This document shows positions 45,404 to 58,255 of a DNA stretch of 64,000 nucleotides, one piece after another. The position numbers were made by a program, and so were the translations under genes. Positions within the stretch are counted from its first letter, which is position 1. Each line of letters starts with the position of its first letter. Source of the DNA: Hyphomicrobiales bacterium (lineage in GTDB: Bacteria > Pseudomonadota > Alphaproteobacteria > Rhizobiales > Rhizobiaceae); assembly GCA_900469475.1 (NCBI GenBank), contig UBXG01000005.1, positions 558,001 to 622,000 of the forward strand. The letters run 5' to 3'. The notes beneath the pieces were generated by a model that was not told where the DNA came from, did not search any database, and saw nothing but the letters and a program-made list of their open reading frames with translations.

Positions 45404-45843
45404 GGCAGCGCTCCAACGCGCCTTGCGCGATTCCTCGGTCGGATCTCCTGTAGGCGCTCGTCACGCAAAAAGATGCCCCGCTCAGCCGGTGCAGCGAGCG
45501 AGGCGAGGCGGGCGCATCACCACAGGCAAGGGAGGAAACACCTGCGGCTTCAGGACGCGCCAGGAGAACACTTAGCGCATGCTTTGAAAATCAAACCCCG
45601 ACTGCGCCGAAGAGCGAATAGACCCGCCGACGCAGGCACTCGAAATCGATCCTTACGAGACAACCGCCCGGCCTTTTTCGAATCAACCAGTGCGTTTGTT
45701 TCTGTAATTGATAGGAAAAACCTATTTCAGATTCTCGTAAAGTTCAAAGAGCAGCGAGATCGTACGATTCACAGGATATAGTGACCTATTTCCCACAGCC
45801 GTCGTTACTCGATCGCTTTTTGCGCTGAGAGCAGCTCTTCGGA
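45404..45843. other. Intergenic region with a minus-strand terminator; possible RNA
   Basis: These 440 bases lie between the ferredoxin gene and the convergent DUF922 gene. A plus-strand frame at 45473-45781 has no ribosome-binding site and an unnatural composition, so I do not call it. A structured G+C-rich block (45404-45620) with an intrinsic terminator on the minus strand could be the 3' end of a long DUF922 transcript or of an independent RNA. The rest is A+T-rich and unremarkable. Confidence 0.4.
45467..45518 (-). terminator. Minus-strand intrinsic terminator
   Basis: GATGCCCCGC (45472-45481) pairs with GCGGGCGCATC (45508-45518), with one bulged base, and is preceded on the plus strand by AAAAA (45467-45471), which is a T-run in the minus-strand transcript. 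Confidence 0.6.
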
Positions 45844-57036: not shown

Positions 57037-57065
57037 TTGCCGATTGACGCGCAACGGTGTAATCA
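57037..57065 (+). promoter_or_regulatory. Candidate promoter of the trpS leader
   Basis: TTGCCG (57037-57042) and TAATCA (57060-57065) are separated by 17 bases. Transcription would begin about 57072-57073, at or just before the leader-peptide ATG. Both elements are imperfect. Read-through from cckA is also possible. Confidence 0.4.
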
Positions 57066-57072
57066 ACCGCCC

Positions 57073-57123
57073 ATGATCGACCTCGCCAAGCCCGTTTTCC
57101 AAATGTGGTGGCGCTCCTTCTAG
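57073..57123 (+). CDS. Tryptophan-rich leader peptide of the trpS attenuator
   Basis: A 16-residue frame, [16 protein letters not shown], ends at TAG 57121-57123. Two consecutive Trp codons (57106-57111) sit just before the first strand of a hairpin (57112-57128), as in classical trp attenuators. A second in-frame ATG at 57103 would give MWWRSF. No good ribosome-binding site precedes either ATG, so the ATG at 57073 is best explained by a leaderless message, as known for the trpE(G) leader of Sinorhizobium meliloti. It has no independent function in this model beyond sensing charged tRNA-Trp. Confidence 0.7.
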
Positions 57124-57195
57124 GAGCGGCAGTCGTCATGTCTTGAAATCGACCCTGCCGCCTCAATCCGGCAGGCATGGTCCATTTCCGTTTTT
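57112..57195 (+). promoter_or_regulatory. Transcription attenuator upstream of trpS
   Basis: Segment 1 CGCTCCT (57112-57118) pairs with segment 2 AGGAGCG (57122-57128). Segment 2 can instead pair, through GCGGCAG (57126-57132) and TCG, with segment 3 CTGCCGC (57155-57161) and CGA, the antiterminator. Segment 3 pairs with segment 4 as a terminator: GACCCTGCCG (57151-57160) with CGGCAG (57169-57174) and, after a 4-base bulge, GGTC (57179-57182). A T-rich tract (57184-57195) follows. Stalling at the Trp codons would mask segment 1 and favour the antiterminator. Confidence 0.65.
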
Positions 57196-57213
57196 CCCTT
57201 CCCGATTGCGGCG

Positions 57214-57229
57214 GCTCCTTTTACGGAGC
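57214..57229 (+). promoter_or_regulatory. Hairpin over the trpS ribosome-binding site
   Basis: GCTCC (57214-57218) pairs with GGAGC (57225-57229), which contains the trpS Shine-Dalgarno sequence. The same GCTCCT is complementary to the AGGAGC of attenuator segment 2, so translation could also be tied to the leader state. Confidence 0.4.
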
Positions 57230-57235
57230 AATGAA

Positions 57236-58255
57236 ATGTTTTCCCCTACCGATAATCGTCCCGTCATCCTGACGGGCGACCGGACCACGGGTCCACTCCA
57301 TCTCGGCCATTATGCCGGGTCGCTGAAAAGCCGCGTTGCACTTCAGCACAGCCATGAGCAATTCCTGCTCTTGGCGGATACGCAGGCACTGACGGACAAT
57401 GCGCATGATCCCCAGAAAGTGCAGCGCAACGTCCTTGAAGTCGCCACGGACTATCTTGCAGTCGGCATCGATCCGGCGCTGACAACGATCTGCGTTCAAT
57501 CCGCTTTACCCGCGCTCGCGGAATTGACACTACTCTATCTGAATTTCGTTACTGTCAGTCGCCTGGAGCGCAATCCGACGATCAAGACGGAGATCCAGCT
57601 GCGCGGTTTCGAACGCGATGTGCCGGCCGGCTTTCTCTGCTACCCGGTCGCGCAGGCCGCCGATATCACTGCCTTCAAGGCGACGGTCATTCCCGTCGGC
57701 GAGGATCAGGCGCCGTTGATCGAGCAGACAAACGAGATCGTTCGCCGTCTCAACCGGCAGATCGGGCGAGACGTTCTGGTGGAGGCTACAGCGATGGTGC
57801 CGGCTGTCGGGCGTCTGCCCGGCGTCGACGGCAAGGCGAAGATGAGCAAATCGCAGGGTAATGCGATCCCGCTTTCGGCATCGTCCGATGAGATCAGGGA
57901 TGCGGTGCGGCGCATGTATACCGATCCGGATCACCTGCGCGTCAGCGATCCCGGCAAGGTCGAGGGAAACATCGTCTTCACCTATTTCGATGCCTTTTGC
58001 GAGGATCGGCAATTCGTCGAAGAGATGAAAGAGCATTATCGCCGCGGCGGACTTGGAGACGTCACCTTGAAGAGACATCTCGAGGATGTCCTGCAGGCGC
58101 TGCTCGCGCCGATCCGCGAACGCCGCGCGCTTTATGCCGCTGAACCGGACTATGTGATGGAAGTCTTGCGGGAGGGGACGCGAAAGGCGAGGGAGCGGAC
58201 AGAGGCGACGCTTGCCGAATTAAGGTCTGCTCTGGGTCTGTTCTCTCTCACTTGA
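57236..58255 (+). CDS. trpS: Tryptophanyl-tRNA synthetase (Streptococcus/Lactobacillus-like type)
   Basis: The 339-residue class I synthetase charges tRNA-Trp. The HIGH motif is HLGH (residues 22-25, in [17 protein letters not shown]) and KMSKS begins at residue 202. Residues such as [46 protein letters not shown] and [18 protein letters not shown] are those of the Gram-positive (Streptococcus) type rather than of the usual proteobacterial TrpRS, which begins with FSGxQPTG. The start at 57236 follows GGAG. Upstream is a Trp-codon attenuator. A second, canonical trpS elsewhere in the genome is expected, which would make this copy auxiliary, perhaps protective against indolmycin-like inhibitors. 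Confidence 0.9.

Follow-up and report, generated by a model that had tools for sequence, protein, structure and literature searches.

In the window, i.e. the whole stretch of 64,000 nucleotides that was analysed, a gene for a tryptophanyl-tRNA synthetase (TrpRS) is preceded by a short leader frame with two adjacent Trp codons and by a set of alternative RNA helices extending to the ribosome-binding site of the gene. The following features were assigned:

57038..57065, plus strand: probable leader promoter (TTGCCG at 57038-57043, 16 nt, TAATCA at 57060-57065); the leader ATG follows 7 nt on
57073..57123, plus strand: leader ORF of 16 sense codons, TrpTrp at 57106-57111, stop codon TAG at 57121-57123
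57112-57118 with 57122-57128, plus strand: hairpin 1:2, spanning the stop codon of the leader
57126-57132 with 57155-57161, plus 57135-57137 with 57151-57153, plus strand: alternative helix 2:3, putative antiterminator
57145..57195, plus strand: hairpin 3:4, putative terminator (stem 57145-57188) with U-tract (TTTTT at 57191-57195)
57157-57168 (5' arm and loop of 3:4) with 57204-57215, plus strand: helix 3:5 with one mismatch, just upstream of the trpS2 ribosome-binding site
57214-57218 (GCTCC) with 57225-57229 (GGAGC), plus strand: helix 5:6, covering the trpS2 Shine-Dalgarno sequence GGAG
57236..58255, plus strand: trpS2, auxiliary tryptophanyl-tRNA synthetase of the TrpRS II type, 339 aa (TIGR00233, 235.5 bits), with its ATG at 57236 behind GGAG at 57225-57228

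The original prediction had taken the gene behind the leader for the trpS of the cell. We found instead that it encodes a TrpRS II of the Deinococcus type: the trpS2 protein scored 398 bits against Deinococcus TrpRS II versus 129 bits against the B. stearothermophilus enzyme. The genome contains two TrpRS genes, the other one being located on another contig and 30% identical to the trpS2 product. Judging from these comparisons the window gene is an auxiliary TrpRS II and the housekeeping trpS lies elsewhere in the genome, on that other contig; on the same grounds we discarded the reading that the leader attenuates the housekeeping trpS. TrpRS II was present in 32 of 120 Rhizobium genomes and is therefore an accessory gene in this genus. 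In one Rhizobium locus (L032, G048:C1:1277977-1278987) trpS2 contains a single in-frame TAG while the leader is intact, reflecting either a recent pseudogene or an assembly error.

All 110 TrpRS II loci that were read (107 by pattern, three by eye) carry a Gln where the housekeeping TrpRS of the own genome has a His, which we take to be the His43 of the B. stearothermophilus enzyme. The exchange H43N gives indolmycin resistance (PMC4899734). Streptomyces TrpRS1 is a known resistant spare (PMC9437257), and a distant trpS2 of Salmonella has been proposed to account for tolerated trpS insertions (PMC3487940). An indolmycin resistance of TrpRS II, derived from Gln versus His, is suggestive only.

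Conservation and layout of the leader

Read directly from position 57073, the leader frame is ATG ATC GAC CTC GCC AAG CCC GTT TTC CAA ATG TGG TGG CGC TCC TTC TAG, so that the predicted 16-codon frame with its two adjacent Trp codons stands with its coordinates as claimed. We searched for such frames with a detector that accepts an ATG, 8-16 codons, TrpTrp and an early stop (WW leader). A WW leader was located before trpS2 in each of the 32 Rhizobium genomes bearing TrpRS II, out of 120 genomes searched. Thirty of these loci are L001 and L004-L032 (minus-strand loci turned first) and two are L168 and L169; L033, L034 and L042 look like repeats of L017, L019 and L015. In control stretches of the same loci the detector found a frame by chance in 9 of 2510 cases. 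In Microvirga, Bradyrhizobium, Mesorhizobium, Ruegeria, Burkholderia, Paraburkholderia and two species of Cupriavidus the TrpRS II gene likewise has a WW leader in front of it. WW leaders also turned up in the genomes drawn evenly from the phylum; the alpha-, beta- and gamma-proteobacteria are all represented, some genomes being counted as gamma by a leader-peptide match to the Vibrio and Klebsiella records. From a plasmid collection six of eight records were scanned (without L172 and L176), and all six contained a WW leader: Agrobacterium rubi, Rhizobium ruizarguesonis, E. coli, Klebsiella (a record of 5.4 Mb), Vibrio (1.7 Mb) and Deinococcus. The attenuator is not peculiar to Rhizobium. The original prediction had named the upstream regions of relatives as the place to look for support, and there the Trp-codon leader and the competing stems are indeed conserved.

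A covariance model of the leader gave matches in 34 of the 120 Rhizobium genomes. Of these, 32 lie before trpS2, 30 of them being the model's own building set, one is a relic and one is chance-like. In the relic (L179, G090:C5:550633-550749) the attenuator is directly followed by the 3' end of trpS2, most of the gene having been deleted. When the model was applied to 24 chosen loci, clear matches were obtained for L116 and L038 only, and L090 and L081 scored at chance level. A search for hidden leaders detected no WW frame in Acinetobacter, Pandoraea and four Cupriavidus species.

Several plasmid records deserve mention. On the E. coli plasmid pB379_2 (L171) TrpRS II and its WW leader are located between IS26 and IS1 transposase genes, and the pair may travel. 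A plasmid of Deinococcus sp. KNUC1210 (L175), thus outside the Proteobacteria, carries, before TrpRS II, a WW leader that looks leaderless and a GC stem with T-run. In L172 (NZ_CP107771.1, named Streptomyces) TrpRS II lies beside an mdeA-like efflux gene, as it does in L176, an S. epidermidis plasmid; L172 is perhaps a mislabelled or contaminating plasmid.

For the layout of the leader we aligned 53 dereplicated leaders at their ATG; the filter for this set excluded the WW leaders L036, L103 and L109 as well as every leader with one Trp codon. A Shine-Dalgarno-like word was found before 4 of the 53 leader ATGs, as compared to 47 of the 53 trpS2 ATGs. Positions -36 to -34 are mostly TTG, with T at -35 in 43 of the 53, and an A/T-rich hexamer follows at -12 to -7, which reads TATACT in five leaders. 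The base before the leader ATG is C in 38. The window matches this arrangement (TTGCCG-N16-TAATCA-N7-ATG); the consensus scanner called no sigma-70 promoter in the window. Since ribosome-binding sites are rare and promoter elements are conserved some 35 and 10 bases ahead of the ATG, the leader looks leaderless and would be translated without a ribosome-binding site. The lack of such a site before the leader ATG, listed as a weak point of the original prediction, is real, and the leaderless layout would account for it.

The WW pair is nearly all that the lineages share in the leader peptide. It is followed by R in 38 and by L in 8 of the 53 leaders, and the stop codon starts 12 or 15 nt past the first Trp codon in 49. 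Typical leader peptides are MTVVITFANLWWRST, METRPASPNVHRWWRA, MQTNPTPSSFIIWWRSN and MKGKHAPCQAWWPGS.

Alternative helices and their covariation

Folding of the 183-nt stretch 57073-57255 gave a more favourable result than 199 of 200 shuffles (z -2.67). Hairpin 1:2 and helix 2:3, the latter including its additional TCG/CGA pairing, were recovered exactly as originally proposed, and the T-rich tract claimed to follow 3:4 corresponds to the TTTTT at 57191-57195, two bases past the stem. Stem 3:4 was recovered in substance, including GGTC at 57179-57182; it is longer than proposed, the partner of its inner part being shifted slightly downstream (57145-57149 with 57184-57188, 57151-57154 with 57179-57182, and 57156-57162 with 57170-57177 with one bulge). 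Helices 3:5 and 5:6 had not been part of the prediction and are additional to 1:2, 2:3 and 3:4.

The terminator is the weak part of the attenuator in this lineage. The consensus scanner called no intrinsic terminator on the plus strand of the window, and after 3:4 the U-tract is poor or missing in many relatives, including many alpha- and beta-type leaders. Among 51 leaders just 18 had a T4 run close to the 3:4 stem, too low a number wherever the stem, once extended, takes in the tract. Ruegeria-type leaders (L056, L078, L140) and L102, L123 and L141 have GC-rich stems with T-runs behind them, and the Burkholderia-type and enterobacterial leaders have shorter T stretches.

No Rfam family matched the leader at gathering score, and at E<=10 three unrelated weak families appeared; an assignment to Trp_leader or any other family was therefore dropped. 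The Rfam T-box covariance model did not match the leader either. The sole Rfam match of the window at gathering score is the sRNA Atu_C7 (RF02501, 64.3 bits) at 45470-45626 on the minus strand.

To assess the helices in relatives we compared how well a segment pairs with its own partner and how well with the partners of other species. This partner test was carried out with 51 divergent leaders and with subsets of 31 and of the 18 most divergent ones. L166 and L082, for which the hairpin finder chose another pairing, were dropped from the helix tests. Paired cells and two-sided changes were counted in an alignment of 43 leaders.

Hairpin 1:2 reached z -9.0 (n=51) and -5.8 (n=18); 100% of its cells are paired, and 4 of its 6 pairs never vary. 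For 3:4 we obtained z -15.2, a value biased by the fact that the stem limits were chosen by folding, with 88.2% of cells paired and two-sided changes in 5 of 11 counted pairs. Helix 2:3 behaved differently. Its z values (-2.3, -1.3 and -1.0 for n=51, 31 and 18) are about those of a meaningless control in which the reversed segment 3 was paired with the 5-region (-2.4, -1.9 and -0.9). In its 7-pair part 95.6% of cells are paired and no pair shows two-sided changes. The low z of 2:3 is due to the helix hardly varying, and 2:3 has no covariation support beyond an almost invariant complementarity. The covarying stems in relatives that the original prediction had named as support are found for 1:2 and, within limits set by folding, for 3:4, while 2:3 is nearly invariant.

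Among the helices whose limits were not set by folding, 3:5 showed the strongest covariation. The partner test gave z -11.7, -8.5 and -7.4 (n=51, 31 and 18), as compared to +0.7, +0.9 and +1.8 when segment 3 was tested against the first trpS2 codons, and 95.6% of cells are paired, with two-sided changes in 4 of 12 pairs. For the structure composed of 1:2 and 3:5 none of 500 shuffles scored as high. Slides of this structure by -3 and +3 gave an equal count of two-sided pairs (5 for the whole structure) with 56% and 62% of cells paired, respectively, versus 97%. The 3' end of 3:5 is located at a median of 19 nt (quartiles 18-22) before the trpS2 ATG. An origin of 3:5 as a by-product of GC-rich repeats was rejected on the basis of these z values set against the other-species, reversed-segment and first-codon controls.

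Helix 5:6 is moderately supported: 90.2% of cells are paired and 3 of 5 pairs show two-sided changes, and its z values fade with divergence (-4.6, -2.4 and -1.6 for n=51, 31 and 18). The structure of 1:2, 3:4 and 5:6 also retained 9 two-sided pairs when slid by +2, but with only 30% of cells paired versus 92%.

Link between the leader and TrpRS copy number

TrpRS genes were counted with TIGR00233 and the presence of a WW leader was scored per genome; two genomes with partial or broken matches (G383, G478) were dropped. Among 53 evenly drawn genomes the leader was found in 21 of 23 with two TrpRS genes versus 2 of 30 with TrpRS II as the sole one (Fisher p 1.8e-10, kinship ignored). Many of the sole-copy genomes are small. 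Removing the 8 sole-copy genomes less than 90% complete, in which a second copy could be missed, gave p 1.6e-8. A set of 49 named genomes, in which L078 was left out of the copy count, showed the same tendency: 26 of 36 two-copy genomes had the leader as compared to 1 of 13 sole-copy genomes (Fisher p 6.8e-5, kinship ignored). The Fisher tests were carried out outside a group of 27 Rhizobium genomes, all 27 of which have the leader.

Ten two-copy loci of the named set have no WW leader. By eye five of them have a leader with one Trp codon (L063, L092, L098, L101, L106), and L038 is a degenerate leader copy still matched by the covariance model. No leader was found at L081, L086, L090 and L095, the last of these by script only. 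Of the evenly drawn two-copy loci, L116 has a one-Trp leader matched by the covariance model and at L124 no leader was detected. Counter-examples with a sole TrpRS and yet a WW frame are L109, L125 and L166. Within Cupriavidus the distribution follows copy number: four sole-copy species (L043, L044, L046, L049) are without the leader and two two-copy species (L048, L085) have it.

Proposed mode of action and relation to known attenuators

We consider it highly probable that a ribosome-mediated Trp attenuator keeps the auxiliary TrpRS II in reserve. The start of transcription, the stalling, termination or antitermination and the order of these events are inferred by us as follows. Transcription would begin with the A of the leader's ATG, and a ribosome would load onto the bare 5' end. 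With ample Trp-tRNA it would proceed to the stop codon and cover segment 2, allowing 3:4 to form. Transcripts would then stop, or segment 5 would close the trpS2 Shine-Dalgarno sequence of read-through RNAs by pairing 5:6. If Trp-tRNA is scarce, either by Trp starvation or by inhibition of the housekeeping TrpRS, the ribosome would stall on the two Trp codons and segment 2 would take segment 3. Helix 2:3 would keep segment 3 out of the terminator until segment 5 is made, and RNA polymerase would read on. Emerging segment 5 would then take segment 3 and, by forming 3:5, be drawn off the Shine-Dalgarno sequence, so that TrpRS II would be made and charging restored. The spacing of WW pair, stop codon and stem suits the classical scheme, in which a stalled ribosome frees segment 2 and a ribosome at the stop codon covers it. 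The simplest reading is that of a backup woken by charging failure, be it via starvation or via an inhibitor.

The part of 3:5 and 5:6 in translation is proposed tentatively, at somewhat less than even confidence. Energies were computed for 49 leaders, without L048 and L094, for which another pairing was chosen and which were kept in the partner tests. Opening the Shine-Dalgarno sequence had a median cost of 2.7 kcal/mol with 3:5 formed, as compared to 6.7 for 3:4 and 6.1 for 2:3 with the ribosome stalled. Because opening is cheap with 3:5, segment 5 taking segment 3 is proposed to open the site. The cost changed from 7.2 to 3.7 for the window leader, from 6.7 to 6.0 for L019 and from 9.6 to 1.6 for L129, the effect often being smaller in Rhizobium leaders than in beta and gamma leaders. 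In the stalled state 3:5 was predicted to be more stable than 2:3 in 27 of the 49 leaders; it was more stable than 3:4 in 11, and 2:3 was so in 12. In these models thermodynamics alone does not settle the order 2:3 to 3:5. Alternatively, 3:5 could be the OFF state for translation. Such a state would agree better with how stalling should work, whereas the access to the Shine-Dalgarno sequence, as computed, argues against it.

Conservation in relatives refutes a chance origin of frame and stems in a GC-rich intergenic region, and the covariation and the association with a second TrpRS also speak against it; although the scanner reported neither promoter nor plus-strand terminator, we regard the probability of this explanation as practically nil. 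More weight has to be given to attenuators that use only a part of the helices. The poor or missing U-tract of many alpha- and beta-type leaders and the absent terminator call are in line with a purely translational attenuator in this lineage, in which 3:5 and 5:6 gate the ribosome-binding site and 3:4 is no working terminator, and so are the near-constant 19 nt between 3:5 and the ATG and the reduced opening cost. However, the window does have TTTTT behind its 3:4 stem, T-runs follow GC-rich stems in the Ruegeria-type leaders and in L102, L123 and L141, the Burkholderia-type and enterobacterial leaders have T stretches even if these are shorter, and the spacing of WW, stop and stem suits transcription attenuation. 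We therefore judge this explanation to be rather improbable. Classical transcription attenuation alone, with 3:5 and 5:6 having no regulatory role, would agree with the textbook spacing of 1:2, 2:3 and 3:4 and with the trpE(G) leader of the own genome, which resembles a simple attenuator of that kind. As 3:5 has the strongest covariation among helices not delimited by folding and keeps its position beside the ribosome-binding site, we consider it unlikely, albeit a serious alternative.

A relative offers a precedent for yet another function: in S. meliloti a leaderless Trp leader yields the trans-acting sRNA rnTrpL and peptide peTrpL (PMC7298713). By analogy the terminated leader RNA or the peptide could act in trans, control of trpS2 being a side role. 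The N-terminal part of the peptide is, however, not conserved across lineages, the covariance model finds the element in 120 Rhizobium genomes only before trpS2 (apart from the relic and the chance match), and the link to a second TrpRS is explained by a role in cis, all of which makes a role in trans very improbable.

The preferred reading, an attenuator holding TrpRS II in reserve, has a number of known counterparts. The trp attenuator of E. coli has two adjacent Trp codons, a stop codon in stem 1:2 and the alternatives 2:3 and 3:4. In contrast to it (Rfam Trp_leader) the trpS2 leader appears leaderless, has the extra helices 3:5 and 5:6 and gives no Rfam match at gathering score. Vecchione and Sello (2010) reportedly described an attenuated auxiliary TrpRS of the S. 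coelicolor trpRS1 type; as in our genome with its two genes, there is a second, housekeeping TrpRS. Lopatovskaya (2010) is said to treat the attenuation of aminoacyl-tRNA operons in bacteria and could already predict a TrpRS II leader.

The original prediction called attenuation of a tRNA synthetase by its own amino acid uncommon in Gram-negative bacteria and knew of no description of this one. This has to be modified for Streptomyces. A Trp leader peptide and attenuator were predicted before trpS in some species (PMC1262725), and trpL2 (MMTRTCTQLWRAA*) precedes trpS in S. lividans (PMC8079986). These systems of Actinobacteria share with ours the Trp leader and attenuator before a trpS gene; trpL2 has one Trp codon versus two in the window leader, and no 3:5 helix is mentioned in the accessible parts of the two papers. 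For Proteobacteria no such attenuator was found among the literature matches listed, apart from a putative small leader CDS that ribosome profiling indicated for the trpS mRNA of Caulobacter crescentus (PMC4117421). The likeness to our leader is that of a small CDS on a trpS mRNA. Streptomyces is known to attenuate trpS genes, an auxiliary one among them; here the same principle would operate in other phyla, with a leaderless layout, two Trp codons and an extra conserved helix at the ribosome-binding site.

The trpE(G) leader of the own genome (G000:C36:113574-113591, L178) ends with IAVWWWAR* and is followed by a GC stem with T-run and by TrpE clade 3. It resembles the trpS2 leader, with its putative terminator, in having a Trp leader ORF and a terminator, and in S. 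meliloti the corresponding leader RNA (rnTrpL) starts at its own ATG (PMC7298713). Unlike the trpS2 leader it controls biosynthesis, has three Trp codons and another peptide, and its GC stem has a clear T-run. Deinococcus TrpRS II is the closest solved relative of the trpS2 protein and is known for working with nitric oxide synthase (PMC9437257); a WW leader also accompanies one copy on a Deinococcus plasmid.

In its fullest form our proposal is a two-lock attenuator, TrpRS II being made only if both read-through and release of the Shine-Dalgarno sequence via 3:5 follow a stall. Leader and TrpRS II would form a cassette on chromosomes and plasmids of Proteobacteria and on at least one Deinococcus plasmid, possibly directed against natural TrpRS inhibitors, the leader being absent in most sole-TrpRS II genomes examined. 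We advance this combined view as a working proposal which may well be right but which we hold slightly more doubtful than probable.

Bacteria may keep the spare of an essential enzyme shut off until the main enzyme fails. A natural experiment for this idea lies in the genomes whose sole TrpRS is the spare: the leader is nearly absent from them. Helix 3:5 is a concrete route by which transcription and translation could both come under the control of one leader. That plasmid copies come with a leader of their own points to a backup of tRNA charging that is mobile and regulates itself, which bears on TrpRS inhibitors such as indolmycin.
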